Shown here: in pieces, positions 596 to 23,116 of the stretch
Layout: every line of letters begins with the position of its first letter
How positions within the stretch are numbered: the first letter of the stretch is position 1
NCBI RefSeq assembly: GCF_024494645.1
Contig: NZ_JANHDJ010000006.1
Coordinates: 1-64,000 of the forward strand
Length of the DNA stretch: 64,000 bases
Source of the DNA: Halohasta litorea
GTDB taxonomy: Archaea > Halobacteriota > Halobacteria > Halobacteriales > Haloferacaceae
Direction: 5' to 3'
Program-made: the position numbers and the translations under genes
Notes under the pieces: model-generated
Seen by the model: only the letters and a program-made list of their open reading frames with translations
Told to the model about the DNA's origin: nothing
The model's database searches: none

Positions 596-686
596 CCCTC
601 CCGCCGAGGCCGGAGACGCTCACTCTCCGCCAGTCGTTCGCGCCTCCCCCTCCCTCGCTCTCCACACCGCCCGCTCGGGCTGCGCC
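596..686. repeat. R90 intergenic repeat, copy 1
   Basis: About 91 bp running from CCCTCCCGCCGAGGCCGG to CTCGGGCTGCGCC, with the shared block CTCCACACCGCCCGCTCGGG. It lies 64 bp after a stop codon and before the next promoter, as in most other copies. Confidence 0.85.
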
Positions 687-740
687 ACAGCTCGGTACCT
701 ACCCGCAGTCGCTCAGGTGTCCGCAGTCTCACCCCCCGCG

Positions 741-776
741 GCACTGTTTTTACCTCCCGACACTGAGGTAGAGGAG
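741..776 (+). promoter_or_regulatory. Palindromic promoter module 1
   Basis: TATA-like TTTTTA at 747, then ACCTC-8 nt-GAGGT arms and TAGAGG. The first T is 36 nt before the ATG at 783. Confidence 0.75.
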
Positions 777-782
777 TACATC

Positions 783-1067
783 ATGAAGTCCACCAACACG
801 ACGACCGAATCAGAGAGCTCGCCGACCGATCACCACGTCCTCGTCCAAATCTACCCCCACCAAGAGCCCTCGGACGGAATCGTCGTCGCAACTGGCGCGG
901 AACGCGATTGCGAAACCCTCTGCGAATCCCGAGATGCGGCGTTCGACGACGTCTCTCACGTTGTGAAACCCGAGTCCTTCGCTACCGACCACGATCTCAA
1001 CAACGTTGGCCCCCAGTCGCTCAACCCAGAACACGCGAAGGACCTCGCCTCCCGGTTCCGAAACTAA
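783..1067 (+). CDS. Hypothetical acidic protein (94 aa)
   Basis: No family is recognised. The first ~15 residues are a Ser/Thr-rich tail; the rest (HHVLVQIYPHQEP onward) looks like a small alpha/beta domain with two cysteines near residues 43 and 47. The start is fixed by promoter module 1, which lies 36 nt upstream. It is a single-gene unit bounded by R90 copies 1 and 2. Confidence 0.65.
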   Translation: MKSTNTTTESESSPTDHHVLVQIYPHQEPSDGIVVATGAERDCETLCESRDAAFDDVSHVVKPESFATDHDLNNVGPQSLNPEHAKDLASRFRN

Positions 1068-1145
1068 CGCCACGCACACGGCTCACCTGGCTCACCGGGA
1101 TCCCCTATCGGCTCGGGCGACTCCCAGGTCCGACGCTGTTGCGCT

Positions 1146-1235
1146 CCTCCCGCCGAGGCCGGAGACGCTCACTCTCCGCCAATCGTTCGCGCCTCCCCCT
1201 CCCTCGCTCTCCACACCGCCCGCTCGGGCTGCGCC
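1146..1235. repeat. R90 intergenic repeat, copy 2
   Basis: Ninety bp, nearly identical to copy 1 (GGAGACGCTCACTCTCCGCC variant). It starts 79 bp after the stop codon of the gene at 783-1067. Confidence 0.85.
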
Positions 1236-1317
1236 TGACCACTCGCGAACGCCCAGCCGGACGGCACCGGACTAATCAGCCGAGTCCCGTCGCCCGTCGT
1301 TGTGATCTCCTCGCCGT

Positions 1318-1353
1318 TGGGTATTTTCTGACCTCCGAGGGGAACTGAGAGAT
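1318..1353 (+). promoter_or_regulatory. Palindromic promoter module 2 (degenerate)
   Basis: TATTTTCT near 1323, then ACCTCCGAGGGGA and GAGAGAT. The palindrome is weaker than in other copies, but the spacing to the ATG at 1358 (35 nt) fits. Confidence 0.5.
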
Positions 1354-1357
1354 AGAA

Positions 1358-1981
1358 ATGACTCCAAGTCAGACCAGCGAGCAGACGCCTCGAACTGTTG
1401 CCGAATCCCTCGGTATGGGCTTCATGTACCACGACCAGCGACAGCGAGCGGCATCCATCGAGGCGTTCGCCGCCGTCGATGCCTTCCAGTTCGAACATCT
1501 AGACGAAGCGGCCGCGATCGAAGCAGGCGAAGCGTATGTCGACGCACTCTGGGAAAAGGACGCCCTCGAAGACACCTGTCGCAACGGCGGTGAGCTGGAC
1601 CTTTCAGAACTCGCCGACGCGGATTGGTCCCCCATCCGAGACGCATTCAGCCGCCGCGCGACCGTCGTCGGGATGGACTCGGAGTACGCAGACTGCTCCA
1701 CGATCGCCTGGCGTCGCCACAAGGTCGGCGGCGACTACTGGACGCCGATGAAGCAGGCGCAGGTGTACGAACTCCAAGCAGCACTCCAAGACCCGGACTA
1801 CCCCAACAAGCCGCGAGAAGGCCAGTCCGGCCACGGACCGGAGGCCGCCCGATACGCGCTCGGCGTCGAACTCCACGACACCCGCCGCTTCGAACCCATG
1901 GTCGACGTGATGATCCCCTACTTCGAACGGATCGCCCACCGGCACCAAACGCACAACAAGCCGGCGTGGAACAGCGACTAG
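1358..1981 (+). CDS. Hypothetical protein (207 aa)
   Basis: No recognised family. The sequence is acidic, soluble and rich in predicted helix, with a Trp/His-rich middle (TIAWRRHKVGGDYWTP, about residues 115-130) and a His-rich C-terminus. No signal peptide or membrane segment is seen. The start is supported by module 2 at the expected distance. R90 copy 3 follows 53 nt after the stop codon. Confidence 0.65.
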   Translation: MTPSQTSEQTPRTVAESLGMGFMYHDQRQRAASIEAFAAVDAFQFEHLDEAAAIEAGEAYVDALWEKDALEDTCRNGGELDLSELADADWSPIRDAFSRRATVVGMDSEYADCSTIAWRRHKVGGDYWTPMKQAQVYELQAALQDPDYPNKPREGQSGHGPEAARYALGVELHDTRRFEPMVDVMIPYFERIAHRHQTHNKPAWNSD

Positions 1982-2033
1982 AGGCGACCGCTCCAACCGG
2001 GTCCCCGCCGACCGCGGCCAGCTTCCGTTCAGT

Positions 2034-2120
2034 CCCTCCCGCCGAGGCCGGAGACCGACGGACATAGTTGCGTCGGCCTCCCCCTCCCTCGCTCTCCTCA
2101 CCGCCCACTCGGGCTGCGCC
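2034..2120. repeat. R90 intergenic repeat, copy 3
   Basis: Variant with the internal hairpin CCGACG-10 nt-CGTCGG nested in GAGG/CCTC; the 3' part CTCACCGCCCACTCGGGCTG is conserved. Copy 10 has the same internal hairpin. Confidence 0.8.
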
Positions 2121-2165
2121 ATTCAGCGATACAACCCCGCCCCATGAACTGTCCTGACCAGCAGA

Positions 2166-2195
2166 GCTTTATCAACATACCGAGAAAAGTGCTGT
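2166..2195 (+). promoter_or_regulatory. Ordinary TATA promoter
   Basis: CTTTATCAAC starts about 29 nt before the GTG at 2196, which fits a leaderless start. It lacks the palindrome of the module family. Confidence 0.45.
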
Positions 2196-2654
2196 GTGGA
2201 ACTCCCAATCACGAACGACGTGGAGATCATCTTTACCGATGGCACCTCCCGTGATGTATTGCTAACCATCCAACACCGCGACTCAGAGTTCATTTACGCT
2301 CCGAGACTCACAGGAGTCAACGAGGAAACCCTCGCAGAGGATGTCACCAAAGAGGACATCGCCGAAATGGACATTCTTCCCCTTGTCTATCAAGCCGCGC
2401 CGAGTTTCAGAGACTCTGACGTGTTCGACATCAACGAGAAGCTTCACGCCAAACATAGCGTCAACACAATCGACGCTCACCAGTTCACGTCAACCGACTC
2501 ATGCACCATCGGCCACCCAGAACACGACGGCTTACTGTCCGTTTCGGATCGCGACATCAACAACATTCACCCAGACCCCGTCGGGAAAGGCATCGCAGAA
2601 CTCCTTAGTGGCATTGCAGATCCGGCAAATAACCACCTCTCATTCTCGAGATAG
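2196..2654 (+). CDS. Hypothetical protein (152 aa)
   Basis: Not recognised. The N-terminus (DVEIIFTDGTSRDVLLTI) looks like a beta-rich segment; the rest is acidic and soluble. The GTG start is chosen because the TATA-like box lies about 29 nt upstream and there is no earlier in-frame ATG. It is one of the few genes in the first 10 kb without a module. R90 copy 4 follows about 100 nt downstream. Confidence 0.55.
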   Translation: MELPITNDVEIIFTDGTSRDVLLTIQHRDSEFIYAPRLTGVNEETLAEDVTKEDIAEMDILPLVYQAAPSFRDSDVFDINEKLHAKHSVNTIDAHQFTSTDSCTIGHPEHDGLLSVSDRDINNIHPDPVGKGIAELLSGIADPANNHLSFSR

Positions 2655-2757
2655 CTTCGGTGAGGGCGTACAGAATCGTCATACCGGGGACCGCGAAAAC
2701 CCCGACACGCTCGGTTTCTTCAGTGGGTTACACTCCAAGCAACCGTTCGCCACTAGG

Positions 2758-2847
2758 CCCCTCCCGCCGAGGCCGGAGCCGTTCGCTCACCGCCAATCGC
2801 TCACGCCTCCCCCTCCCTCGCTCTCAGCCAGTCGCTCGGGCTGCGCC
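2758..2847. repeat. R90 intergenic repeat, copy 4
   Basis: Divergent 3' part (CTCTCAGCCAGTCGCTCGGG) but the same 5' part CCCTCCCGCCGAGGCCGGAG. From here to the R100 repeat at 3033 the DNA is GC-rich and has no supported gene. Confidence 0.75.
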
Positions 2848-3032
2848 TGTCCGCTGCCGCCGGCTCCGCGAGGCCGTCCGCTCGGGCCGCCCCGCTTGCC
2901 GCCGCACGCCGCACCGGGGCCACCACCCCGCTCGCCGCGTCATGGCCGGCAGAACTCCACCCGCGGTTGTCGCCTGAACGTTCCGACGGCTCGGCCGCCG
3001 ACGCGCTCTCCGGCGCTGGCGGAGTCACCGGG

Positions 3033-3162
3033 CACTCACCCGACTTCCGCGGTTGCTGGTAAAACCGTCGCCGCTCGCTCTCCACACCGCCCGCTCGCGG
3101 TTCCCTTCGGTCACCCCACAAGGGGGCGAGGTAATACCCGCAACCGCGGTTCGGATTCAGAC
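3033..3162 (+). repeat. R100 leader repeat, copy 2
   Basis: Matches 242-370 over its whole length with scattered changes. It ends at the ATG of the gene at 3163. Confidence 0.6.
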
Positions 3163-3423
3163 ATGCCCGGTGACACCGCCGCTACAGAGCGCATCGACGA
3201 GGAACCCGAGCCGATGGTCGTCACGTTCAAGAGTCGCGACGAACCGGAGTTCCAGAAGCCCGACCATGACCCCCACGGCGAGACGTGCGCGGCGGCGGCC
3301 CACTCGACGGCGTCGTGCGACCGCTGCGGCAAGTCGGGGGTCGTCCCCACGGCCAACCTCGAGTACGCATCCGGCTTCGTCGGCGGCCCCGAGCGCGAGG
3401 TCATCTGCGAGGACTGCGCCTGA
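3163..3423 (+). CDS. Zinc-ribbon-like small protein (86 aa)
   Basis: Two CxxC knuckles (residues 52-55 and 82-85) plus a cysteine at 42, arranged like a treble-clef or zinc-ribbon module. The N-terminal half is acidic and probably disordered. The start is supported by the R100 leader shared with 371. The longer upstream reading frame is translated repeat DNA. Function unknown; nucleic-acid or protein binding is an inference from the zinc motif. Confidence 0.65.
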   Translation: MPGDTAATERIDEEPEPMVVTFKSRDEPEFQKPDHDPHGETCAAAAHSTASCDRCGKSGVVPTANLEYASGFVGGPEREVICEDCA

Positions 3424-3490
3424 CCGAGGCGCGGTCCTCGACCGTCGACAGCACCGATCCGCGCGATACCGCTTCGCGAGCAGCGACAAC

Positions 3491-3581
3491 CCCTCCCGCC
3501 GAGGCCGGAGACGCTCACTCTCCGCCAATCGCTCGCGCCTCCCCCTCCCTCGCTCTCCACACCGCCCGCTCGGGCTGCGCC
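3491..3581. repeat. R90 intergenic repeat, copy 5
   Basis: Close to copies 1 and 2 in sequence; begins 68 bp after a stop codon. Confidence 0.85.
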
Positions 3582-3682
3582 GGAAGAAAGCAGCACCAAT
3601 CCTAGAAAACGAGGCCGATCAATCGGACCCGGCGATCACGTTTCAAGACCCGAACTCAGTTCACTACGAACAAACTCCTGTC

Positions 3683-3997
3683 TTATTCTCTCTCACAGAG
3701 CAGATAGAGGTTATCTTCGAGGGCAATAGCAGAATCACTAGGAATTGCCAGAGCAGGAAACTCGACATCTTCAACTGTTGATATAATACCCTCACCATCG
3801 GCACAGCGCCTGAACTTGTACATATTGTCCCCCCCAGTCGTGAAGATCAGATGCCCGGAACCGCCGGACGTACTTCCCTCCGTAGTACACTCCTCTATGA
3901 CCATCGTACCCGTCACCCATTCCCCCTCATAGTCCAATTTCACTCTTTCTGGGGCTGCCCTTTCTCCAACATGAGTAGGTTCTATCTCAACCTTCAT
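3683..3997 (-). CDS. Hypothetical protein (104 aa), minus strand
   Basis: Not recognised. Beta-rich sequence with a Gly/Ser stretch (GSTSGGSGH) and cysteines near residues 38, 85 and 101. It is one of only six minus-strand genes in the window. A TATA-like TTAACTATAG lies upstream on the minus strand near 4015-4025. The region has a lower GC content than its neighbours, which hints at a separate origin. Confidence 0.55.
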   Translation of the reverse strand: MKVEIEPTHVGERAAPERVKLDYEGEWVTGTMVIEECTTEGSTSGGSGHLIFTTGGDNMYKFRRCADGEGIISTVEDVEFPALAIPSDSAIALEDNLYLLCERE

Positions 3998-4061
3998 ATT
4001 CAGATATCACGTTCAACTATAGTTAATGTACCTCTCAGAACACCACCCCCTAAGCGCCCCG

Positions 4062-4096
4062 CAGAGATTTTTTTAACCACCGTTTTGGGTGAGGCG
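4062..4096 (+). promoter_or_regulatory. Palindromic promoter module 3
   Basis: GCAGAGA, T-run with TTTTTTTAA at 4068-4076, CACC-GTTTT-GGGTG arms, then GAGG. It lies 37 nt before the ATG at 4105. Confidence 0.65.
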
Positions 4097-4104
4097 TATT
4101 CGAA

Positions 4105-4479
4105 ATGAGTACACACCAGACCCAGACCGCAGGACGAGCCGGACAGACTGAGGCCGAAATCGCTGAACTCGACATCTACGATATTCACAACCGGTCGCTC
4201 GCCATCCAGCACATGCCGGATGCGCTGATCAATATCGAGAGTCTGTTCGGCGTCGGGAAGCAGCTCGCGACGAACCTTCGGCGGGCCGGCTTCTCGACGA
4301 TTCCCGACATCCACCACAACGAGAAGTGGAAGCTCACGCTGATCGACGGTGTCGGCGAAGATACTGCCCGCGGTCTCAAGTCGCTCGCCGCAGGTCGGTG
4401 TAATTACCACTTCGGCAACTACGCCTGGAAGCCGTTCAAGGAGCACGACCCGACGATCGTCGCGGAACTCGACGCCTAA
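4105..4479 (+). CDS. Helix-hairpin-helix DNA-binding protein (124 aa)
   Basis: Two helix-hairpin-helix motifs are visible: FGVGKQLATNLRRAG (about residues 48-62) and DGVGEDTARGLKS (81-93). Such tandem motifs bind the DNA backbone without sequence specificity, as in RadA, UvrC or ligase C-termini (family knowledge). No catalytic domain is attached, so it is probably a stand-alone DNA-binding or adaptor protein. It is followed after 6 nt by the gene at 4486, with which it likely forms an operon. A second tandem HhH protein is encoded at 51964. Confidence 0.75.
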   Translation: MSTHQTQTAGRAGQTEAEIAELDIYDIHNRSLAIQHMPDALINIESLFGVGKQLATNLRRAGFSTIPDIHHNEKWKLTLIDGVGEDTARGLKSLAAGRCNYHFGNYAWKPFKEHDPTIVAELDA

Positions 4480-4485
4480 CCACCT

Positions 4486-4749
4486 ATGACGGACAACCCC
4501 AACAAATTCGACGACCCGCTGATCACTGAACCGACGCACGAACTGGGCTTTCTCGGTGACATCAAGATCCACCAGGATGCCGAGGACGTCGTCACGATCC
4601 GACTCGTCGCCCGTGATACGGACGACAGTGTCGACTTCCAAGTCACCGACCACACGATGATCCAGCTAGCTGAGGCGGCGAAAGCCGCGTTCACCAAGAT
4701 CCACGGCAGCATGGCCTCGATATTCGACGCGCTCGACCGAGACGAGTGA
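4486..4749 (+). CDS. Hypothetical protein (87 aa), HhH operon
   Basis: Not recognised. A beta-rich middle (EDVVTIRLVARDTDDSVDF) is followed by an amphipathic C-terminal helix. The gene starts 6 nt after the HhH gene and has no promoter of its own, so the two are probably co-transcribed and may work together on DNA. Confidence 0.65.
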   Translation: MTDNPNKFDDPLITEPTHELGFLGDIKIHQDAEDVVTIRLVARDTDDSVDFQVTDHTMIQLAEAAKAAFTKIHGSMASIFDALDRDE

Positions 4750-4963
4750 CGACCCGTTCCGAACCACACCGGACTGCGTCGTCTCCCCCCGCGCCCTCCA
4801 GACGCCACCGCCGACCGTGAGACGTTCCGCGCTCCCGCGAGTGGAAAACCACACCCGAATCCGGCGGACGCACAGCGAGCATCCTACGGCGTCTGAGCCA
4901 CCACCACGCGCGTCGGAGTCACGCGCGACGAGTGGGACCCCACAGACACCACAGACCGCTCAG

Positions 4964-5046
4964 CCCCTCCCACCGAGGCCGGAACCCTCCTTTCAGTCGG
5001 CCTCCCCCTCCCTTGCGCTCGTACGGCGAGCGCGGCGGGCTGCGCC
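4964..5046. repeat. R90 intergenic repeat, copy 6
   Basis: Variant with GAGGCCG... CGGCCTC arms and an altered 3' part (GCGCTCGTACGGCGAGCG in place of the CTCCACACCG block). The gap 4750-5143 holds only this repeat and module 4. Confidence 0.75.
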
Positions 5047-5098
5047 ATTCCGCCCGCTTCGCTTCGTATCGGCCCACCCCAAGTATGTCCAAGCGCCC

Positions 5099-5134
5099 CG
5101 CAGAGAGTTTCTATTCCCCGGTTTCGAGTGAGGT
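5099..5134 (+). promoter_or_regulatory. Palindromic promoter module 4
   Basis: CGCAGAGAG, TTTCTA at 5108, CCCCGGTTTCGAG, GTGAGG. It lies 36 nt before the ATG at 5144. Confidence 0.7.
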
Positions 5135-5143
5135 CTAATAACA

Positions 5144-5302
5144 ATGGCTTGCCAATCAGGCTGCAACTCAGAACCGCTCAGCGAGAACAAATTCCAGTGT
5201 AGCAACTGCGGTCACGTCCACCGTGTTGACGAACCCGTCTTCGATGAGTTCCTCACCTCGTCAGCGTCACCCATCGACACTGGTCGCCGCCAGCGAGTGT
5301 AG
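5144..5302 (+). CDS. Zinc-ribbon micro-protein (52 aa)
   Basis: Cysteines at 3, 7, 19 and 22 (CxxxC and CSNCGHVHR) form a probable zinc ribbon in the N-terminal half; the C-terminus is Ser/Arg-rich. The start is set by module 4. It resembles other 50-90 aa zinc micro-proteins in this window that sit alone behind a module. Role unknown. Confidence 0.65.
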   Translation: MACQSGCNSEPLSENKFQCSNCGHVHRVDEPVFDEFLTSSASPIDTGRRQRV

Positions 5303-5353
5303 GACCCCCCTTTTGGTACCATCACGCCGCTTCGCCGTACTCCCGATCTGGGC

Positions 5354-5444
5354 TCCTCCCGCCGAGGCCGGAACCGCTCGCTCGCCGCCGATCGCTCGCG
5401 CCTCCCCCTCCCTCGCTCTCCACACCGCCCGCTCGGGCTGCGCC
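5354..5444. repeat. R90 intergenic repeat, copy 7
   Basis: Full-length copy of the ACCGCTCGCTCGCCG variant, 51 bp after a stop codon. Confidence 0.85.
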
Positions 5445-5508
5445 GGGGGACAGCCACCGATCCGCAAGCGAGCCAGCGACCGACTGATGCGATACCAAGG
5501 GCAGCACC

Positions 5509-5544
5509 GCAGGAGAGGTTTATATGACCCGAGTGAAGTGAGGG
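5509..5544 (+). promoter_or_regulatory. Palindromic promoter module 5 (first of a triplet)
   Basis: GAGAGG, TTTATA at 5519, GACCCGAGTGAAGTGAGGG. It is the first of three modules spaced 125-130 bp apart upstream of the gene at 5878. An ATG at 5545 opens a 107-codon frame ending at 5868, treated here as doubtful. Confidence 0.65.
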
Positions 5545-5639
5545 ATGACTCGAACAGTAGCATACGGGAGTACCACTGACCAGCCTACGAGAGTGGTTGG
5601 ACAGGGACTTCCGTCGTGTATCCCACACAGCAGGCCCAC

Positions 5640-5676
5640 GCCGGGAGATTTTATAGTCCCCGAATTGGGTAGAGGG
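5640..5676 (+). promoter_or_regulatory. Palindromic promoter module 6 (second of a triplet)
   Basis: GGGAGA, TTTATA at 5649, CCCC-GAATT-GGG, TAGAGGG. An ATG lies 28 nt after the first T and is in the same frame as the ATG at 5545. Confidence 0.7.
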
Positions 5677-5765
5677 ATGTTCGAGAAGTCACACTCCGAC
5701 CAGACCACCACAGCCAGCGTGCTGGGTGAGATGTCGGAACGCATCCCAAGCTCCTCGAAGCGACC

Positions 5766-5802
5766 GCAGGAGGGTTTATATACCCCGGTTGGGGCGAGGG
5801 GC
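5766..5802 (+). promoter_or_regulatory. Palindromic promoter module 7 (third of a triplet)
   Basis: GGAGGG, TTTATA at 5774, ACCCC-GGTT-GGGGC, GAGGGG. It lies 104 nt before the ATG at 5878. A GAACGA/TCGTTC hairpin follows at about 5818-5842. Confidence 0.7.
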
Positions 5803-5877
5803 GTTGAAGTGAGAGGCGCGAACGAAGACATGTTCTCGTTCGTTCCGATGATCCATCCCTCGATTTAGGTGAATCCA

Positions 5878-6855
5878 ATGAGCGCAACCAGCACTCCCCA
5901 GAACGGTAGTATCGACTCCAACAACACTGTCCTCGTCATCCCCACCGGCATCGCCGGGAACCCGCGATACATCGCGGACATGGATGCGATGGCGGACGAG
6001 ATCTGCTCGGCTGTGAACGGTCTCGCTGGCAACCTCGGCCAGTCCATGGACGAAGTCGTCGTCCGCGGAAGCTACGAGATCGCTGAGGCGGTCGGCGAGA
6101 TGTTCGGTTCGGACGGCCCCGATGTCGACAGCTACTCGCTCGACTTCCGGATGTTCCTCGATGACCCCGCCGAGAGCGGCAGCGGCTACTCCGTGGAGGG
6201 CGTCGCCCAGGACGGCGACAAGCCCATCGTGGCGGCAGTCGCGCAGGTCCACGACATGACGGCTGACGAGATCGAGGCGTTCGACCTCTCGGACCGTGAC
6301 GACCGGAACCTCATCAACTACGAGGTTCTCCAGCTGCTCGAAGACGAGAACAGCCTCGACGAGAGCGAGCGCGAGTTCGGCGGCAGCGCGCGTATCGGGC
6401 GGGCGAAGGCGAAGTCGAAGGCGAAAGCGACCGAGCGGCTCCTCTCGGACTACTTCGACAGTCTGGCGACGGCCGAGCACGTCATCATCATCGAGGACGG
6501 CACGGACAGCTACGAGCACGCGGCTGGCGACGTTCGCGGCCAGAACGACTGGGTCAAGTTCGCGTCGAAGGCACCGGGCGAGATCCGCTCTGTCCGACCC
6601 AGCGGCGGCGTCGGCGGTGTGCTCGACTGGACGCGCGCGCTCCTCGAGAGCAACCGCGAGGGCGGCATCGAGGTCGAGGACCTGACCGACGAGCAGGAAG
6701 CGGACCTGCGCGAGCGCCTCTCGGACGAGGACCTCGAGAACGTCGGGCTGGGCGTCGAAGAGCCGGCCGAGACGGCCGAGCCGGAGACGCCCCAGGACGA
6801 CAGTCGCCCGGTCGCGGCCGAGGCCGCTGCGGTCGCCGGCCCGGCTGACGACTGA
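5878..6855 (+). CDS. Large acidic paralogue A, possibly SLOG-like (325 aa)
   Basis: One of three paralogues (with 16100 and 22202). Shared features in order: a V/I-rich strand near residue 20 (VLVIPTGIAGNPRY), VVVRGSYEIAEAV near 60, SLDFRMFLDDP near 85, FDLSDRDDRN near 140, and HVIIIEDGTD near 205. The layout of short strands followed by Gly-rich or helical segments recalls SLOG/DUF2493 nucleotide-binding proteins, but this is only an inference. The C-terminal ~30 residues are Ala/Pro/Glu-rich. ATG 5878 is preferred to GTG 5869 because it aligns with the start of 16100. Three upstream modules suggest strong or layered expression. Confidence 0.75.
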   Translation: MSATSTPQNGSIDSNNTVLVIPTGIAGNPRYIADMDAMADEICSAVNGLAGNLGQSMDEVVVRGSYEIAEAVGEMFGSDGPDVDSYSLDFRMFLDDPAESGSGYSVEGVAQDGDKPIVAAVAQVHDMTADEIEAFDLSDRDDRNLINYEVLQLLEDENSLDESEREFGGSARIGRAKAKSKAKATERLLSDYFDSLATAEHVIIIEDGTDSYEHAAGDVRGQNDWVKFASKAPGEIRSVRPSGGVGGVLDWTRALLESNREGGIEVEDLTDEQEADLRERLSDEDLENVGLGVEEPAETAEPETPQDDSRPVAAEAAAVAGPADD

Positions 6856-6926
6856 GGCGAGGCGAGCCCCCTTCCGTCGTTGTTGTGTGCGTCTGCCCCT
6901 CTCTTCTCTTCTTTCTCTTTTGTGCG

Positions 6927-7007
6927 CCCCTCCCGCCGAGGCCGGAGCCCTCCTTTCAGTCGGCCTCCCCCTCCCTCGCTCTCCACACCGCCCGCTCGGG
7001 CTGCGCC
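6927..7007. repeat. R90 intergenic repeat, copy 8
   Basis: Variant with GAGGCCG...CGGCCTC arms around CCTCCTTTCAGT, as in copy 6; the 3' block CTCCACACCGCCCGCTCGGG is intact. Confidence 0.85.
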
Positions 7008-7051
7008 TGACCGCATTCCTGATCACCGCCCCGGACAGCAGGTTCGCGCCC

Positions 7052-7088
7052 CGCAGAGCAGTTTTTACATCTCGATTGAAGCGAGAGA
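7052..7088 (+). promoter_or_regulatory. Palindromic promoter module 8
   Basis: CGCAGAGCAG, TTTTTA at 7062, CTCG-ATTGAAG-CGAG arms, GAGAT. The ATG at 7090 is 28 nt from the first T, which implies a leaderless mRNA. Confidence 0.7.
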
Positions 7089-7089
7089 T

Positions 7090-7707
7090 ATGACTGGCAG
7101 TTCACAACCCCAGACCCAAGAGACGATGACCGAGAGCACGCACGAATGCGGCCACTCCACCGACCGTGACGCGATCTCCCTCCCCGAGGTCGGCCGCATC
7201 TGCCGAAGCTGCTACACTCCGTTCTCGCTGAAGAAGTGGGACGCTTCCCTCCGACGCACCAAGGTCCACCACCAGACCGGCGAAACCACCCACTACAACA
7301 CGTGGCTCGTCGGCGTCGACGACTTCGGGCGGGCAGTGTATCACGACGAGAAGCAGGGCCGGATCCTCAAGGTCGTCCCGAAACACCACCGCGCCTTCCG
7401 GGACGAAGTCGATGACGACATGCGAATCCTCCGTGGGTACCCGCACCCGCACGCCGCCGGCTACGGACATATCCTCAACGCCCCGGACAACGACGTTCTC
7501 GTCGCCGTCGACTCGATCAAGACATCCTCGCGCGACTTCAGCAAGGACGACCTCGTCGGCTACGTTACCGAGCACGCCTCAGTGGAAGGCTGGCACGCGA
7601 TCTCGTCGCCGATGCTCGACTGTATCCGGCGGTACAACTCCCCCCGGACGCGCCACGAATACGAACACGCCGACGAGGTCCTCAACGAGTTCGCCGACGA
7701 CGAGTAG
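7090..7707 (+). CDS. Zinc-binding hypothetical protein (205 aa)
   Basis: An N-terminal ECGH...CRSCY pattern (Cys20, His22, Cys38, Cys41) suggests a zinc knuckle. The remaining ~155 residues form an unrecognised alpha/beta domain with a His-rich stretch (RGYPHPHAAGYGH, about residues 115-128). No membrane segment is seen. It is a single-gene unit with module 8 upstream and three copies of a T-rich 25-bp repeat just after the stop codon. Confidence 0.65.
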   Translation: MTGSSQPQTQETMTESTHECGHSTDRDAISLPEVGRICRSCYTPFSLKKWDASLRRTKVHHQTGETTHYNTWLVGVDDFGRAVYHDEKQGRILKVVPKHHRAFRDEVDDDMRILRGYPHPHAAGYGHILNAPDNDVLVAVDSIKTSSRDFSKDDLVGYVTEHASVEGWHAISSPMLDCIRRYNSPRTRHEYEHADEVLNEFADDE

Positions 7708-7709
7708 AC

Positions 7710-7815
7710 CCACTCCGGTTTTCCAGTGTTCTTCCCCCCTGCCCCACACCGTTTTTCCAGTGTTTTTCGTGCCACCACTTCCCGAGACCCCCCACACCGT
7801 TTTTCCAGTGTTCTT
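7710..7815 (+). repeat. T-rich 25-bp repeat, three copies (possible terminator)
   Basis: Copies at 7710-7733, 7743-7767 and 7791-7815 follow CCCACACCGTTTTTCCAGTG plus TTTTT or TTCTT. The last two start 48 bp apart, exactly as at 17113 and 17161. They lie immediately after a stop codon and have two T-tracts each, which suits transcription termination on the + strand. Confidence 0.6.
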
Positions 7816-7879
7816 GTAACGCCAGTCCGTGGGCTACTCCGCGAGATGTAGCGGCCCCACTCGGCGGTAAACGAACCCG

Positions 7880-7915
7880 CAGAGAGTTTCTATTCCCCGA
7901 TTTGGACAGAGGATT
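7880..7915 (+). promoter_or_regulatory. Palindromic promoter module 9
   Basis: CGCAGAGAG, TTTCTA at 7887, TTCCCCGATTTGGACAGAGG. It lies 36 nt before the ATG at 7923. Confidence 0.7.
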
Positions 7916-7922
7916 CGAGACA

Positions 7923-8579
7923 ATGTCACAGTCAACAGTTAGCCCAGTTAGCCAGCACAACCGCGAGACCATCGACGATCCGATCGAGAAGCTCACCGAG
8001 ATCGCTCACACTATGCCCGAGCTCGTCGACGCGAATCCGGTCATCCGCTTCAGTGGGTTGCCGGCGAGCCGCGACGCCGTGTACGAACAGGACGTGACGT
8101 ACCGGAAGAAGGACGATATCTTCTTTGCCGGCTCGGTTTCGCTCCCCAGCGACGATGGGCGATTCATGAATGAACGGCTCATAACCAAAACCCCGTACAA
8201 GACGAGAGATGCGTTCAACGCGATCCCCGAACTCACAGCGCACGCCCGATTCGATGGTGGCCGGTGGCACTTCGAGGCGGGCGCTACCGAGAGCTGTCTC
8301 CAGCACTTCCTCGATTGGGGCCACGATGTCGCGGGACACCTCCAGACATTCCTCAAGCACATCGACATCCCCGCGGCGGAGACCGCAGCCGAGCCCGTAG
8401 GTGAACAGTCCGGCGGTGGAGCAGTCACCCCCTACGTCGAGACGGGGGCCTGTCCCGCAAGCGGCTGTAGCTTCCACTCTGACGAGTTCAAGCAGCTCCG
8501 CGGCCATATCGGCGGGAAGGTCGCCGGAGGCGACGACTCTCACAAGCACCTGAAAGTGCGGATCGACGACTACCGCTGA
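7923..8579 (+). CDS. Protein with C-terminal C2H2-type zinc finger (218 aa)
   Basis: The C-terminal ~43 residues carry CPASGCSF...LRGH...H with Cys177, Cys182, His195 and His207/209, and end IDDYR. The same C-terminal unit makes up most of the 85-aa protein at 14414. The N-terminal ~165 residues are not recognised. A DNA- or RNA-contacting role is inferred from the finger alone. It is followed by the gene at 8625 without a new module, so the two may be one operon. Confidence 0.7.
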   Translation: MSQSTVSPVSQHNRETIDDPIEKLTEIAHTMPELVDANPVIRFSGLPASRDAVYEQDVTYRKKDDIFFAGSVSLPSDDGRFMNERLITKTPYKTRDAFNAIPELTAHARFDGGRWHFEAGATESCLQHFLDWGHDVAGHLQTFLKHIDIPAAETAAEPVGEQSGGGAVTPYVETGACPASGCSFHSDEFKQLRGHIGGKVAGGDDSHKHLKVRIDDYR

Positions 8580-8624
8580 CTGTTCCGAGCTCGCCGCGAA
8601 ACCCACAGCAGAGACTCCACACCC

Positions 8625-9200
8625 ATGTCCACCACCGCATACAACGTCCGAATCGAAGACGAGACCTACACCGTTTCCGAAAACAGCGAACTCGACGCGA
8701 GGTATCTCGCAGCCTCGCGCCACAAGGCCAGCGACGACGGCCCCGAAGTCGGGATCGGCGTCGAGGAGTTCGCCCAGCACGCGACCGTCGTTGATGACTC
8801 CGTCGAGGCGTTCTCGTTCGACTCGCCGCGCGTCACCCGTGAGGACCTCCCCGCAGAACTCCAAACCACAGGCGATGCCGAGGGATCCTTCGGCGGCGTC
8901 GACGTCCGCTCCGTCCACACCGAGTACGGCGGTGTGTTCTACGGCATTCTGGTCCGCCCCGAGGATGTCCCCGCCGTCGTCGCCGCGATCGACGTCGAGG
9001 ACCGCGACCGTCACGAGGTTCCCGCCCACGCCCCGCGGACGCCGATCTTCACCCACACCGCCGCGTTCGCGTCGAAACTCGACATGCGAGACGCCGCCAC
9101 CGGACTGGTCCTCACGCAGATCAACTTCGGCTCAGTCCCGAAGACGATCCCCTTCCTCGATCTCCGCCCCAACGCAACCTCGTTGTGGTCGATGGCCTAG
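8625..9200 (+). CDS. Hypothetical protein (191 aa)
   Basis: Not recognised. Acidic, soluble and mixed alpha/beta, with a segment rich in beta-branched residues near residues 105-125 (GGVFYGILVRPEDVPAVVAAI). The ATG lies 45 nt after the zinc-finger gene, so co-transcription is likely. R90 copy 9 starts 24 nt after the stop codon, the tightest spacing seen. Confidence 0.65.
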   Translation: MSTTAYNVRIEDETYTVSENSELDARYLAASRHKASDDGPEVGIGVEEFAQHATVVDDSVEAFSFDSPRVTREDLPAELQTTGDAEGSFGGVDVRSVHTEYGGVFYGILVRPEDVPAVVAAIDVEDRDRHEVPAHAPRTPIFTHTAAFASKLDMRDAATGLVLTQINFGSVPKTIPFLDLRPNATSLWSMA

Positions 9201-9223
9201 CCGACCTTCTCGTCTTTTCAGCG

Positions 9224-9315
9224 CCCCTCCCACCGAGGCCGGAGCCGCTCGCTCACCGCTAATCGCTCGCGCCTCCCCCTCCCTCGCTCTCCACACCGCC
9301 CGCTCGGGCTGCGCC
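9224..9315. repeat. R90 intergenic repeat, copy 9
   Basis: Ninety-two bp, close to copies 4 and 7 in its middle part. Confidence 0.85.
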
Positions 9316-9409
9316 AAGACGTAGATGTTTGCCGGGGCCGGCGCGTGCGTCGCCAGCAGGCTGGCGACCCACTCGCCGGGTATGTCTGCTTCGCGCCAGC
9401 GCCCGGTCT

Positions 9410-9531
9410 TCCCGAACACCCCTAAAGGCCATGCAACCGCCCTTCCGGTGCAGTAGCGCCGGCTTGCGGTTGCCCCACTGGGGCCGCTCGCTTCGCTCGC
9501 GGCAAGACCATTAGGGGCGTTCGGGGTACGG
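9410..9531. repeat. Long imperfect inverted repeat
   Basis: CCCGAACACCCCTAA near 9411 is matched in reverse by ATTAGGGGCGTTCGGG near 9510-9526, with GCAACCGC/GCGGTTGC as an inner arm. Together they can form a ~115-nt hairpin just before the gene at 9540. It could be a structured leader or a trace of a small mobile element. Confidence 0.5.
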
Positions 9532-9539
9532 GAGCGCGT

Positions 9540-9749
9540 ATGGCGCGAAGCGCAGGCGGTCGAACCCTCGTGCGTGGTACCGAGAAAGCAACCAACGCCT
9601 CCGAACACCTCGAGCACCTCATCGAGTGCCGCGAGATGAGCTGTTCCGCGGTCGAGACCATCGACGAAGACGAGGCAAAGCAGGTCGCCGAGACGCTCCG
9701 CGAAGCAGCGGATATGATCGAAGCGGGCGCGGACTCGATGCGGTACTGA
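9540..9749 (+). CDS. Small helical protein (69 aa)
   Basis: Not recognised. The C-terminal two thirds look helical (DEDEAKQVAETLREAADMIEAG) with two cysteines near residues 30 and 35. A TATA-like CATTAG lies about 30 nt upstream, next to the inverted repeat. R90 copy 10 follows 53 nt after the stop codon. Confidence 0.55.
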   Translation: MARSAGGRTLVRGTEKATNASEHLEHLIECREMSCSAVETIDEDEAKQVAETLREAADMIEAGADSMRY

Positions 9750-9801
9750 TCGAGTCCGTCCCTTTCGCTTTCGCTCGCTGCTACCGTTACGCTCCGCTCC
9801 G

Positions 9802-9889
9802 CCCCTCCCGCCGAGGCCGGAGACCGACGGACATAGTTGCGTCGGCCTCCCCCTCCCTCGCTCTCCACACCGCTCGCTCGGGCTGCGCC
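9802..9889. repeat. R90 intergenic repeat, copy 10
   Basis: Contains the CCGACG-GACATAGTTG-CGTCGG internal hairpin of copy 3, but with an intact CTCCACACCG block. Confidence 0.85.
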
Positions 9890-9903
9890 TGACCGCGACC
9901 ACC

Positions 9904-9936
9904 AGCCGTTTTTACCTCCCGAGTCAGGTGGAGGAT
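9904..9936 (+). promoter_or_regulatory. Palindromic promoter module 10
   Basis: TTTTTA at 9909, ACCT-CCCGAGTC-AGGT arms, GGAGG. It lies 31 nt before the ATG at 9940. Confidence 0.7.
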
Positions 9937-9939
9937 CAG

Positions 9940-10101
9940 ATGGACGAGACCAACACCCCCGACTACAGTCATCCGCCAGACGGACCAAACGACATCACCC
10001 CTGCCGACGAGGTCTACCGGCTCGGTGAGGAAGTGGTGATCGTCCACGGACCAGGTAGCGAGACCCGCGTCGACGCTGACGACTTCTACGACGAGACCTA
10101 A
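9940..10101 (+). CDS. Acidic micro-protein (53 aa)
   Basis: Not recognised. Pro/Asp-rich N-terminus followed by a short beta-like segment (RLGEEVVIVHGPGSETRVD). The start is supported by module 10. It is the last gene before the 2.2-kb structured non-coding region. Confidence 0.55.
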   Translation: MDETNTPDYSHPPDGPNDITPADEVYRLGEEVVIVHGPGSETRVDADDFYDET

Positions 10102-10120
10102 GAGCCCACCTCGAAAGCCC

Positions 10121-10222
10121 CTCGCCCTGTCGCGGCCGCTCGACGGCATATCCGTGCCTCTCCACACCGTTCGGCTCGGATAGGGGCCGGTCGAGGCGAC
10201 CACGTGAACGCGACAGGGCGAG
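10121..10222. repeat. K-type hairpin 1
   Basis: Perfect 14-bp arms CTCGCCCTGTCGCG (10121-10134) and CGCGACAGGGCGAG (10209-10222), then CTCGAC/GTCGAG and ATCCG/CGGAT, closing on CCTCTCCACACCG. Confidence 0.75.
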
Positions 10223-10534
10223 CCCCTTTCAGTCCCACCAGTACCGCGAGCCACCAGCACGCGCGTTCCTCGCACGCGACAGCTGGATCCAGAGCGACAC
10301 GACGATCGGAGATAGTCGGCCACTCTCACCGCGCCGCACGTGGGTGATTTAGGCGCACGTCGTTTATAGCGGCTGATTTCCGGGACGCTGCTCTACGCGC
10401 GGTGGGTTACTGACCCCGCACGCCTCCGGCGAATCGCGTTGCTTTCGCCGGACGCGCACGGCTCAGTACCCACCCCCCGAGAGCCGATGTTCACTGCGAC
10501 CACCGCAGTCGAGAACTGCGCGGCCCCGACCCGA

Positions 10535-10597
10535 CTGACGTCGCCGGACCCTACCCGCGAGCGCAAGCCGCTCGCGGGTCCCTTCCACCGACCTCAG
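10535..10597. repeat. H-type nested stem-loop 1
   Basis: Core GCCGGACCCTACCC and GGGTCCCTTCC around an 11-bp hairpin (10553-10579). Outer helix CTGACGTC/GACCTCAG with one mismatch. Confidence 0.7.
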
Positions 10598-10739
10598 CCG
10601 CGTCGCGACACCGCTCGTCACTCGCCTGCGGCGGCCTTTGTTCACATCGGGTCGTGCTACGACCAGGTTTCCTCACTTCCTCGATTTCTGCGCTGGCGCG
10701 TGCAGTAGCGCGCGCCGCGCACTCGCCGCCCTGCCTACT

Positions 10740-10811
10740 CGACCCACCGGCATCCGGCGGACCCTACCCGCCCCTCCGGGCGGGTCCCTTCCGCCGCATC
10801 CCGGCGCGTCG
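10740..10811. repeat. H-type nested stem-loop 2
   Basis: Core hairpin ACCCGCCC-CTCC-GGGCGGGT (10766-10785). Outer helices GGCGG/CCGCC, CCGG/CCGG and CGAC/GTCG. Confidence 0.7.
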
Positions 10812-10924
10812 ACTGGCAGTGCCGCCGAGTCGAAACGGTTCCGGGAACGCGCCCTGGCTTGCCGCCCCCACCGAACCGCTTGCTCGCTGCGCGCTCGCAT
10901 TCCGCGTCGTCGGAACGGCTCGCC

Positions 10925-11005
10925 GAGCCGGGCCGGGCCGAATCCGGCAGACAACTCCCCGCGCAAACCGCGCGCGGGTCCCGTCTGCCGCAATTCGACC
11001 GGCTC
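10925..11005. repeat. H-type nested stem-loop 3 (divergent core)
   Basis: CGGCAGAC/GTCTGCCG (10945-10952 and 10983-10990) encloses a CCCGCGC/GCGCGGG hairpin; farther out are CGAAT/ATTCG and GAGCCGG/CCGGCTC. Confidence 0.65.
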
Positions 11006-11198
11006 GGCGGCCGTTCTCGCCGTCGGTCGTACTCGCTGGCCACTCTCCGAACCGCGAGCGGCACTGAGCCGGGTCACGATTTCTCACAGAAATCGACCGG
11101 CTCAGCGACCACGCTCGCGCTGGAGAGTGCCCGCTCGCAGCCGACGGCTCGCGCGGAATCCCGACCATATCCGCCCGATTCATCTGCGTTCACTCCAC

Positions 11199-11272
11199 CG
11201 CGCACGGCTCACGATCTCGACGGACCCTACCCGCCTTCGGCGGGTCCCTTCCGACGACATCGACCGTGCGCG
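11199..11272. repeat. H-type nested stem-loop 4
   Basis: Core ACCCGCC-TTC-GGCGGGT (11229-11245). Outer helix CGCGCACGG/CCGTGCGCG, with CGAT/ATCG inside it. Confidence 0.75.
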
Positions 11273-11425
11273 CCGGGTTCACGTTGTTCATCGAGCGCAT
11301 CTGACGGGTGACGCGGTTCGACGGCGGCGGCTGCCAGGCCACGTACCGGGAACCGCTCCGGCGGTGGGGGCCGACCGCCGGAGTCCGCGGAAACAGCACA
11401 ATTTTCTTAGCACTTAACCGCTCGC

Positions 11426-11471
11426 GGTTCTGCGCCGGGCCTCTCCACACCGCTCGGCCCGCCACAGAACC
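11426..11471. repeat. K-type hairpin 2
   Basis: GGTTCTG...CCGGGCC and GGCCCG...CAGAACC arms around CTCTCCACACCGCT. Confidence 0.7.
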
Positions 11472-11529
11472 CAGTGGCGGTCGCGCTATCACACAGGCGC
11501 GACCACCACTGCTCCGGCAAGCTGCGGGC

Positions 11530-11607
11530 GCTGTCGCGGACGATTCCTGCCGGACTCCTTCCCGCTCTTCGAGCGGGTCCCTTCCGATTGAAATCGCCCG
11601 CGACAGC
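11530..11607. repeat. H-type nested stem-loop 5
   Basis: Core CCCGCTC-TTC-GAGCGGG (11561-11577). Outer helix GCTGTCGCG/CGCGACAGC. Confidence 0.75.
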
Positions 11608-11713
11608 ACTCCTCGCCGTGCCGGAAGGACCGGATAAGTGCTAACCACACCCCCCACTTGTCGGCGGTCAACCGGGCGGGTTGGGGAGACCACTTGTCGG
11701 TTCGTTCAGGCGC

Positions 11714-11803
11714 GTGCCCTCGTTGATATCGGTCGGATCACGCCGGACCCTACCCGCCTTCGGCGGGTCCCTTCCACCGTCTCCGACCGATTCAACGGGG
11801 CAC
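11714..11803. repeat. H-type nested stem-loop 6
   Basis: Core ACCCGCC-TTC-GGCGGGT (11752-11768). Long outer helix ATCGGTCGGA/TCCGACCGAT continued by CGTTGA/TCAACG and GTGCC/GGCAC. Confidence 0.8.
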
Positions 11804-11830
11804 CCACCTGTACGCTTCCAACTTGTGGCG

Positions 11831-11918
11831 GTGATGTGGTCCTCGATACCGCCGGACCCTACCCGCTCGGATCCGGTAGGTCCTCGCGGGTCCCTTCCAG
11901 CGGTATCGGCCACTTCAC
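11831..11918. repeat. H-type nested stem-loop 7
   Basis: Core ACCCGC/GCGGGT with a longer loop. Outer helix CGATACCGC/GCGGTATCG continued by GTGG/CCAC and GTG/CAC. Confidence 0.75.
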
Positions 11919-11926
11919 CGGCCAAT

Positions 11927-11986
11927 CCCTCACGGTTCTGTCCGGGCCTCTCCACACCGCTCGGCCCGACCAGAACACAGCGAGGG
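11927..11986. repeat. K-type hairpin 3
   Basis: CCCTC/GAGGG and GGTTCTG...CCGGGCC paired with GGCCCG...CAGAAC around CTCTCCACACCGCT. Confidence 0.75.
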
Positions 11987-12025
11987 TCGCGCCGACCGCT
12001 AGCGCGACCCCCGCTGTTCCGACAG

Positions 12026-12120
12026 CTGCGGGCGCAGGCACACCCGATTCCTTCCGGACCCTTCCCGCTCTCCGAGCGGGACCCTTCCCTCGGAATCGAC
12101 CGTGCCTGAGCTCCTCGCAG
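12026..12120. repeat. H-type nested stem-loop 8
   Basis: Core CCCGCTC-TCC-GAGCGGG (12064-12080). Outer helices GATTCC/GGAATC, CAGGCAC/GTGCCTG and CTGCG/CGCAG. Confidence 0.75.
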
Positions 12121-12256
12121 TGCCGGACGCCGCCCGGTTGCTTCCAACTGTTGAGGGGTGTTGAAAATCATAGTGAGGATGAACCCAGTAGGGGTCGTGC
12201 CGGCTGTCGGCGGCGGTTGTGTGAGTTTTGTTCCACACAGGCTGCTCGCTGATTCG

Positions 12257-16011: not shown

Positions 16012-16099
16012 ATGTGATCGAGGCAGTCCAGACAGACTGTCTCGGTGCGAATCCCCAAACGGCAGATGCGGTTGCGGTCAAACAATCCAAGTGATAACA

Positions 16100-17017
16100 A
16101 TGTCGACAGAAGCATCCCAGAACGGCGGTAGCATGGCCAGTACGAACACCAACGACGAGCTCAACGTCTTCGTGGCGGCACTCGGGCTGACGGGCAACGA
16201 TCGGTACGTTCGCGACATGGACGCACTCGCGGACCGCGCTGAGGAGGGCATCAAGAAGATCGCGGCGATGGCCGACCAGCGTGTCGACAACATCGTCGTT
16301 CGCGAGAACTACGCGCTCTCGCAGCTCCTCGAAGAGCGATTCGACGACGACGTCTTCCCCGACGTGGAGTATTACAGCATGGACTGGCGGATGTTCCTCG
16401 ACGACCCTGCGGAGGACGGCGACAACTTCTCCGTGGAGGGCGTGATGATGGAGGACGATGTCCCGGTCGGCCAGCTGATGGCCGCCGAGCACGGCGTCGA
16501 CGCGAGTGCGTTCGACCTGAGCGATCGCGATGATCGCAACGACATCGACTACAGTCTCCTCGAGCAGTCGCGGATCAACCGCGCGAAGGCCAAGGCGCGT
16601 GGAAAGACGGACGAGCGTGTGTACAACGACTACTTCGACACGGTCACGACGGCGACGCACGCCGTCTTCCTCCACGACGGCACCGACCGGGGGATGGAGG
16701 CGATCACGACGGCTCGCGGCACGAATCCGTGGGTCAAGTACGCAACGGAGCTCAGCGGCGACTACGTGGACGTTTCGGCCAACAAGGACGGCGATCAGAT
16801 CCTCGACTGGGCGCGCTACCTCGTCGAGTCCTCGCGCAGCGATGTCGAGGTCGAGGACCTGACGGACGGGCAGGTGGCGGACCTGCGTGCCCGGCTGTCG
16901 GCCGACGACCTGGAGTACCTCGGACTGGAGCCGCAGGCGGCCCCGGAGACGGAGCCGGAACCGGACGCGGCTGTGGCGGCGGAGGCCAGCGAGGTCTCCC
17001 CGGCGCAGGCTGACTGA
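16100..17017 (+). CDS. Large acidic paralogue B, possibly SLOG-like (305 aa)
   Basis: Clear paralogue of the gene at 5878. It shares NDRYVRDMDALAD (near 33), DNIVVRENYALSQLLEE, MDWRMFLDDPAEDGDNFSVE, FDLSDRDDRNDIDY, a basic RAKAKARGKTDER helix, HAVFLHDGTDRG, and VEVEDLTDGQVADLRARLS. The Ala/Pro/Glu-rich tail is also shared. The match extends to the triple promoter, so gene and control region were probably duplicated together. Function unknown; SLOG/DUF2493-like nucleotide binding is only a guess from the strand order. Confidence 0.75.
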   Translation: MSTEASQNGGSMASTNTNDELNVFVAALGLTGNDRYVRDMDALADRAEEGIKKIAAMADQRVDNIVVRENYALSQLLEERFDDDVFPDVEYYSMDWRMFLDDPAEDGDNFSVEGVMMEDDVPVGQLMAAEHGVDASAFDLSDRDDRNDIDYSLLEQSRINRAKAKARGKTDERVYNDYFDTVTTATHAVFLHDGTDRGMEAITTARGTNPWVKYATELSGDYVDVSANKDGDQILDWARYLVESSRSDVEVEDLTDGQVADLRARLSADDLEYLGLEPQAAPETEPEPDAAVAAEASEVSPAQAD

Positions 17018-22201: not shown

Positions 22202-23116
22202 ATGGCCGAGCCAGCCCGACGAGTCACCTCCCTCGTGGACCCGATGTTCACGCTCGCGGTCATCCCCACCGGCATCCTCGCGAACCCCCGCTGTATCTCC
22301 GACCCTGAACAGCTCGCAAAGCACATCTGTACCGCGGCTGCGCCGGTTGACCGACGGCTCCGCATCGCTGGCGAGAAGATCAAGCATGTGGTCGTCGCCG
22401 GCCCCGCCTGTATCGCGACCGCCATCGACGAGATCACTCCAGCCTACGTTGAGGTGAGTTACAACCACGTTTCCTTCCGCCGCCACCTCGACGACGCTGG
22501 GGAGTCTGGAGACGGATTTCACATTCCATCCGTTGTCCGCGACGACCCGGTGGTCGGCGAGTACCTCGCCGGTCTCAACAAGCTCTCACGCGACTCCGTC
22601 GACGACCTCGACCTGAGCGACTACGAGGACCGAGCCCGCATTACCTCCGATGTTGTCCGCCATCTTGAGGCCGACCGCTTCTGTCGAGCCAACCAGAAAG
22701 CCGAGAGCAAGCGGTTCGAACAGATCACCAACGACTGGTTCGATATCCCGACCGCGAAGCACGCGCTCATCCTCGGCGACGGCGTGAACCCCCACGAACA
22801 TATCGTTGACCACGCCAACGGCTCGAACGACTGGATCAAGTACCCGACCGGCTGTGACGGGATGGTCATCGACGAGACCATCGACGGATCTGGCAACGAC
22901 GGACTCAGCTGGGTCCAGGCGGCCGTGTTCGACCCACGATTCCAGAAGCAGGTCGTCTACTCCCGCCTCTCCGACACGCAGAAACGCGAGATCCACCAGT
23001 GGCTGACCGAGACTGGCCGCCAGCACCTCTCGTTCCCGCAGTCCACCTCGACACCCACACACGCGAGCGCCACCGACGGGACCGCGTCTCCGACCGCCGA
23101 GACGGCCTCCCCGTGA
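22202..23116 (+). CDS. Large acidic paralogue C, possibly SLOG-like (304 aa)
   Basis: More distant paralogue of 5878 and 16100. The same ordered blocks are seen: LAVIPTGILANPRCISD (near 18), KHVVVAGPACIATAIDE (near 62), FRRHLDDAGESGDGF, LDLSDYEDRARI, NDWFDIPTAKHALILGDGVNPHEH, NGSNDWIKYPTG. It has extra cysteines (near 30, 40, 69) and a Ser/Thr/Pro tail. It has one module and a 25-codon leader frame instead of the triple module. The VVVAGPA and ALILGDG elements support a nucleotide-binding fold, but this is not proven. Confidence 0.75.
   Translation: MAEPARRVTSLVDPMFTLAVIPTGILANPRCISDPEQLAKHICTAAAPVDRRLRIAGEKIKHVVVAGPACIATAIDEITPAYVEVSYNHVSFRRHLDDAGESGDGFHIPSVVRDDPVVGEYLAGLNKLSRDSVDDLDLSDYEDRARITSDVVRHLEADRFCRANQKAESKRFEQITNDWFDIPTAKHALILGDGVNPHEHIVDHANGSNDWIKYPTGCDGMVIDETIDGSGNDGLSWVQAAVFDPRFQKQVVYSRLSDTQKREIHQWLTETGRQHLSFPQSTSTPTHASATDGTASPTAETASP

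Follow-up and report, generated by a model that had tools for sequence, protein, structure and literature searches.

The window analysed here (the first 64,000 positions of contig C31, which is 296,994 bp long, in the 3.81-Mb genome G000 of Halohasta litorea) contains a gene-free region of about 1.9 kb with a conserved, many-armed secondary structure, the shape of which is kept across haloarchaeal genera while the sequence drifts. The region lies in a conjugative transfer module, next to a gene for a protein resembling replication protein A (RPA). The reading that we tentatively prefer, with a confidence that falls somewhat short of even, is that of a DNA element selected for its shape as a single strand and acting in conjugation, with a promoter or priming role. 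A literature search limited to open-access papers turned up no description of the region.

Architecture of the gene-free region

The initial annotation described an array of at least eight stem-loop units in this part of the window. The eight that it listed are all found, far above the chance expectation, and share the core GGA[CCCT]ACCCGC…GCGGGT[CCCT]TCC, which is exact in five units and variant in three, with unit 3 being the most deviant (Table 1). In the variant core of unit 8, an A-T pair is replaced by T-A, that is, by a change on both sides. The exact pattern GGACCCTNCCCGC...GCGGGTCCCTTCC has five matches, all within the array, and none elsewhere in the genome; GCGGGTCCCTTCC with at most 2 mismatches has 10 matches in the window, compared to 2.98 expected, 8 of which are within the array, all on the plus strand. 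The outer helices were claimed to vary in sequence and yet to stay complementary, and comparison of the repeats agrees. The internal loop, in contrast, had been taken to be asymmetric and turns out to be a symmetric 4x4 loop, CCCT/CCCT, given that the A and T flanking the hairpin form a base pair. The units are arms of one bigger conserved structure that includes further, non-unit arms. The left terminal motif appears able to pair with the right end, which makes the two a candidate closing helix, imperfect in three lineages. An internal duplication of approximately 205 bp (11421-11625 and 11929-12127, 79.5% identical) is the source of units 5 and 8 in the lineage of the window.

Table 1. Features of the structured region and the adjacent gene (window coordinates)
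Feature	Position	Strand	Basis
Whole conserved structured noncoding region	10284..12219	.	Similarity limits and conserved structure
Left terminal motif TGATTTC	10374..10380	.	Six-sequence alignment
Non-unit arm, conserved loop TCGCGT(A/T)GCT	10391..10483	.	Alignment, loops, consensus fold
Unit 1 arm, core 10546-10586	10484..10650	.	Consensus fold, repeats, exact core
Unit 2 arm, core 10759-10792	10721..10830	.	Repeats, exact core, consensus fold
Unit 3 arm, variant core ~10950-10990	10918..11011	.	Repeats, consensus fold
Unit 4 arm, core 11222-11252, triloop TTC (minus strand: GAA)	11159..11310	.	Exact core, loops, consensus fold
Non-unit arm, conserved 10-nt loop TATCACACA(C/G)	11472..11511	.	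Alignment, loops, consensus fold
Unit 5 arm, variant core 11552-11585	11512..11626	.	Repeats, consensus fold
Unit 6 arm, core 11745-11775	11690..11828	.	Exact core, consensus fold
Unit 7 arm, core 11854-11898	11829..11920	.	Exact core, consensus fold
Unit 8 arm, variant core 12056-12088, in 205-bp duplicate of unit-5 stretch	12024..12110	.	Repeats, similarity, fold
Right terminal motif TTGAAAATCATAG (TTGAAATCATAG in lineages B and C)	12161..12173	.	Alignment
RPA-like OB-fold gene, 404 aa	12331..13545	+	NCBIfam, predicted fold, conserved neighbour

The view that this stretch lacks a recognisable gene is upheld. The long open reading frames listed mechanically in the region do not have the acidic bias of haloarchaeal proteins, and no genes are annotated in the homologous stretch of two annotated plasmids. 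A search of the window against Rfam at the gathering score matches no family in the region; the sole match is a tRNA gene at 28829-28949, which is probably intron-bearing (121 bases compared to a 71-position model). Readings of the array as terminators, CRISPR or attC sites were dropped on the grounds of architecture.

Several other elements occur in the window. A separate hairpin, GAAAGCCCCTCGCCCTGTCGCG...CGCGACAGGGCGAGCCCCTTTC, at 10103-10240, is outside the main structure and recurs on many plasmids of haloarchaea, with 73-76% similarity to sites on those of Haloarcula, Halorussus and Haladaptatus. The sequence CTCTCCACACCGCYCG is present in 10 copies in the 3.81-Mb genome, all on the plus strand and within 11.3 kb (window 658-11963), mostly in an approximately 85-nt intergenic repeat that follows genes, with two copies inside arms of the element; the CTCTCCACACCGCYCG array is found also in Halorubrum laminariae. 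The window further encodes three paralogous proteins of about 300-330 aa (5869-6855, 16091-17017 and 22202-23116), and the two of these that were scanned have no Pfam matches.

Relatives and conservation of the structure

Relatives were sought by scanning a single genome of each species for the pattern and, in addition, in plasmid records. The scan identified members in Halobellus, Halorubrum, Halosimplex, Halorarius, Natribaculum, Salinibaculum and one further haloarchaeon, and the plasmid records added a member from Natronomonas. Single matches in Robertkochia, Rhodococcus, an actinobacterium and a Chloroflexi bin are probably due to chance. Of the haloarchaeal plasmids and viruses named in the initial annotation as places to search, plasmids thus yielded members, as did genome contigs. 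No members were found in phage records or in one pattern scan of IMG/VR, and another IMG/VR scan returned two short contigs. The limits of the Blast similarity, which consists of blocks of about 70-75% DNA identity, define the approximate boundaries of the conserved region.

Five lineages were aligned, namely, A, the window; B, Halorubrum CSM-61 together with near-identical copies in other genera; C, Natribaculum; D, Halosimplex pelagicum; and E, genome G159. Identity between lineages is 59-70%, with the exception of B and C (93%). The copies of lineage B differ across genera at only 2-9 positions, and the window copy is nearly identical to that of Halorubrum laminariae, which indicates recent movement.

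The conserved structure with compensating helices that had been proposed for the array is strongly borne out across these five lineages. When folded as RNA, positions 10400-11000 yield a z-score of -7.0 against shuffled sequences, and folding of 11400-12180 as DNA yields -24 for the plus strand and -16 for the minus strand. The consensus energy, computed in 250-column blocks on both strands and compared to column-shuffled alignments, has z-scores from -4.6 to -11.6, a range given for the well-aligned blocks, the last block being mostly gapped and uninformative. Of 599 plus-strand consensus pairs, 543 recur on folding of the reverse complement, i.e., nearly all are Watson-Crick pairs. Over the five lineages, 88% of the cells in these 543 pairs are Watson-Crick, compared to 27-31% when the partners are slid by 1-3 columns, and two-sided Watson-Crick compensation is observed for 193 pairs, compared to 26-35 for slid partners and a maximum of 95 in 200 shuffles; the slid values are low partly because the structure was predicted from the same alignment, so that the fairer tests are the shuffle and the comparison of lineages B and C. 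In the latter, paired columns are the less changeable, with 47 changes in 1024 paired columns as against 63 in the remaining columns. The alignment-based statistics come from one alignment method and from five lineages, two of which are close.

Neighbouring genes and a second family of structured regions

The 404-aa product of the gene downstream of the region matches the NCBIfam replication factor A model with an E-value of 1.4e-6 and a score that falls short of the curated cut-off. Its predicted C-terminal domain resembles single-stranded DNA-binding OB folds from the PDB (POT1, RPA and SSB), with the qualification that the AlphaFold model is poor outside residues ~170-330. Homologues of the OB-fold protein are encoded 3' of the region in lineages B-D and in HArc-gm2, and, judging from sequence, in lineage E; in Salinibaculum, an OB-fold gene is not recognised directly downstream. 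A T-rich, TATA-like stretch separates the region from the gene in the window genome and in Halosimplex. The window genome has a second copy of the OB-fold gene (G000:C31:295141-296346, 70% identical) near the contig end, with no structured array upstream, which rules out the notion that every RPA-like gene is accompanied by such a region.

In lineage B, the genes that precede the region include one for a VirB4-like transfer ATPase (8.4e-43) and one for a 2498-aa product, in which a VirD4/TraG signal is weak; the VirD4 signal is known for lineage B only. VirB4 homologues are present in all nine records searched.

When the Salinibaculum region was used as the query, 64 of 391 haloarchaeal genomes were matched, mostly via one 90-nt stretch that belongs to a second family of shorter structured regions, about 600 nt long. 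In the 26 contigs checked, these regions are located 230-510 bp upstream of a match to the RPA-like protein, on the same strand; a covarying hairpin abuts the start codon, and inspection by eye reveals no clear TATA-like box near the gene. Upstream of some of the second-family regions, there are ends of the form CTTTCAGTCC(C)ACC that resemble the hairpin at 10103-10240. Plasmid pHALXA02 of Halopiger xanaduensis, typed as MPF_T by MOB-suite, illustrates the gene order: a VirB4-like gene, a HerA-like ATPase, a PriS-like primase, the structured region (gene-free at 24838-25594) and then the RPA-like gene. Across both families, of the 27 contigs that hold both, 24 have VirB4 in the same orientation within the 50 kb upstream (rows compiled by hand, with near-relatives that are not independent), and the spacing between the region and VirB4 varies from 7 to 42 kb.

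Acting strand, proposed role and alternatives

In RNA helices, a one-sided change to G.U is tolerated whereas a change to A.C is not, and in DNA, too, G.T is the more readily tolerated of the two. Between lineages B and C, the one-sided pair changes read on the plus strand include 8 G.T and 20 A.C. This is the opposite of what is seen in haloarchaeal controls scored on Rfam structures, where the ratio of G.T to A.C is 145:64 for SRP RNA and 84:29 for RNase P RNA. These structure-mapped controls replaced a single-strand mismatch finder and RNAalifold applied to MAFFT alignments of 30 SRP or RNase P RNAs, which had performed poorly because real RNA helices were broken by G.U or misaligned. G.T is rarer than A.C in all ten lineage comparisons, which share sequences and are not independent, and in the cells overall (55 and 90, respectively, of 2609). 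Thus, the plus strand is not RNA-like, contrary to the initial annotation, in which the structure was considered most likely RNA; the role at the DNA level that it named as the alternative is a better fit than a plus-strand RNA. Read on the minus strand, the B-C changes become 20 wobble to 8 A.C, a wobble share of 71%, compared to 69% for SRP RNA and 74% for RNase P RNA. Any wobble signal therefore points to the minus strand, where an RNA-like ratio is also expected of single-stranded DNA. The second family shows no strand lean in its G.T and A.C changes. Hairpin loops of the element are most often three bases long, as opposed to four for the RNA controls, and the minus-strand sequence of several core loops is C(GAA)G or C(GGA)G; the GAA and GGA triloops are known as stable DNA loops. 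Taken together, these observations only moderately favour DNA, and its minus strand, as the acting form.

Conjugation delivers one strand. Under the model of a DNA element that acts as a single strand, the strand entering during transfer, most likely the minus strand, which is the template of the RPA-like gene, would adopt a branched, many-armed fold, in which the CCCT/CCCT loops (AGGG/AGGG on the minus strand) and the conserved apical loops are putative sites for the docking of proteins. Once folded in the recipient, this strand would attract transcription or priming factors, such that the RPA-like gene would be expressed, or second-strand synthesis begun, before the plasmid becomes double-stranded. 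What the analysis establishes is the structure with its conservation, the adjacent gene and the location in the transfer module, whereas the single-stranded state, the acting strand and the promoter or priming function are inferred. Transcription from the entering strand needs the minus template, the same strand towards which the wobble changes lean. Several observations speak against this model: the tolerance of wobble on the minus strand suits RNA equally and is not seen as a lean in the second family; the TATA-like stretches in G000 and Halosimplex imply that a conventional promoter may be enough; no relaxase or nick site was identified that would fix the polarity of transfer; the distance to VirB4 is far from constant; and Salinibaculum lacks a recognised OB-fold gene in the expected place.

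The proposed role is modelled on Frpo/ssi upstream of ssb in the F plasmid. In conjugative elements, Frpo/ssi is hairpin-forming DNA located directly upstream of the plasmid gene for the single-stranded DNA-binding protein (PMC11541004). Similarly, the haloarchaeal region is noncoding, has extensive secondary structure, is found immediately upstream of a gene for a predicted single-stranded DNA-binding protein (with Salinibaculum as the exception) and, as suggested by VirB4 and MPF_T typing, probably belongs to a conjugative element. It differs in being archaeal, in its length (about 1.9 kb compared to the regulatory regions of 50-350 bp searched in PMC11541004), and in having many arms with a repeated core, and the bacterial -10/-35 elements are inapplicable. 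The likeness rests on layout, no sequence relation is expected, and the region is not classed as a member of this group. A further parallel is offered by OrfL and OrfM of ICESt3, OB-fold proteins of a conjugative element that participate in relaxosome DNA processing (PMC12614216); this is a likeness by description, to a bacterial system, and the abstract mentions no giant structured DNA. The attC sites of integrons are likewise single-strand hairpins with variable stems that are recognised by structure. The region differs from them in that neither an association with an integrase nor gene cassettes were seen and in that its conserved core is near the arm apex.

The main rival is that the minus strand is transcribed, divergently from the RPA-like gene, into a large structured noncoding RNA involved in plasmid transfer or in control of RPA, a possibility that we regard as unlikely but deserving serious attention. 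The minus-strand wobble share, which matches the SRP and RNase P controls, is what such an RNA would produce, and the ends of the region could pair and close a single molecule. In size, in the ornate, conserved secondary structure and, for GOLLD and ROOL, also in the mobile-element setting, it would be comparable in kind to GOLLD, ROOL and OLE (PMC12286853). Conversely, comparison of the lineages by eye reveals no conserved archaeal promoter at the right end, the loops are triloops rather than tetraloops, there is no match to any Rfam family, and the second family has no minus-strand lean. The region further differs from GOLLD, ROOL and OLE in that its plus-strand wobble pattern is unlike that of RNA and in that it is found near the transfer module and the RPA-like gene instead of tRNA islands.

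The other possibilities appear less probable. The constant position of the region just upstream of the RPA-like gene on the same strand, along with the hairpin abutting the start codon and the apparent lack of a TATA-like box in the second family, is what would be expected of a structured 5' leader or another cis-regulatory RNA that controls this gene from the plus strand; given that G.T is rarer than A.C on this strand in the first family, opposite to the RNA controls, and that a TATA-like stretch intervenes between the region and the gene in the window, we consider this quite doubtful. Slightly better, and still improbable, are the prospects of an origin of transfer or a single-strand replication initiation site, that is, a platform for nicking or primase loading that has no promoter activity. 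The position within the transfer module and the PriS-like primase gene that pHALXA02 carries in the same stretch are compatible with this possibility, whereas the constant neighbour is the RPA-like gene and no relaxase or nick site was identified. Known oriT sites, moreover, are far shorter than the region. Archaea are reported to encode many VirB4 homologues and few relaxases (PMC3158045), so that an oriT was not located in these plasmids. Finally, the 205-bp internal duplication and the related cores within one lineage might reflect mere spread of palindromic repeats, with the whole having no function, which is highly improbable because the arms retain their positions from one lineage to another and are constrained, as seen in the B-C comparison of paired columns and the rest, and because the architecture is common to lineages at 60-70% identity.

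A bolder version of the single-stranded DNA model, which is speculative and on present evidence rather unlikely to be correct in full, is that haloarchaeal conjugative plasmids carry a kilobase-scale machine made of single-stranded DNA, with a fixed multi-arm architecture and a repeated docking motif, that acts in recipient cells ahead of second-strand synthesis. With the same reservation, such a machine would be the DNA counterpart of the large ornate RNAs. If the region indeed acts as folded DNA, it would be, to our knowledge, among the largest conserved single-stranded DNA structures. VirB4-type transfer genes are present on haloarchaeal plasmids, whereas few relaxases are reported from archaea (PMC3158045), and the region bears on the question of where and how the transfer of their DNA starts. 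It occupies a fixed position within the transfer module, beside the gene for a predicted single-stranded DNA-binding protein, and provides a concrete piece of DNA to test; it may be the landing or start site that is missing from the picture of plasmid transfer in archaea. If the region acts as folded DNA, archaea would use the same trick as the leading regions of bacterial conjugative elements, with unrelated parts.
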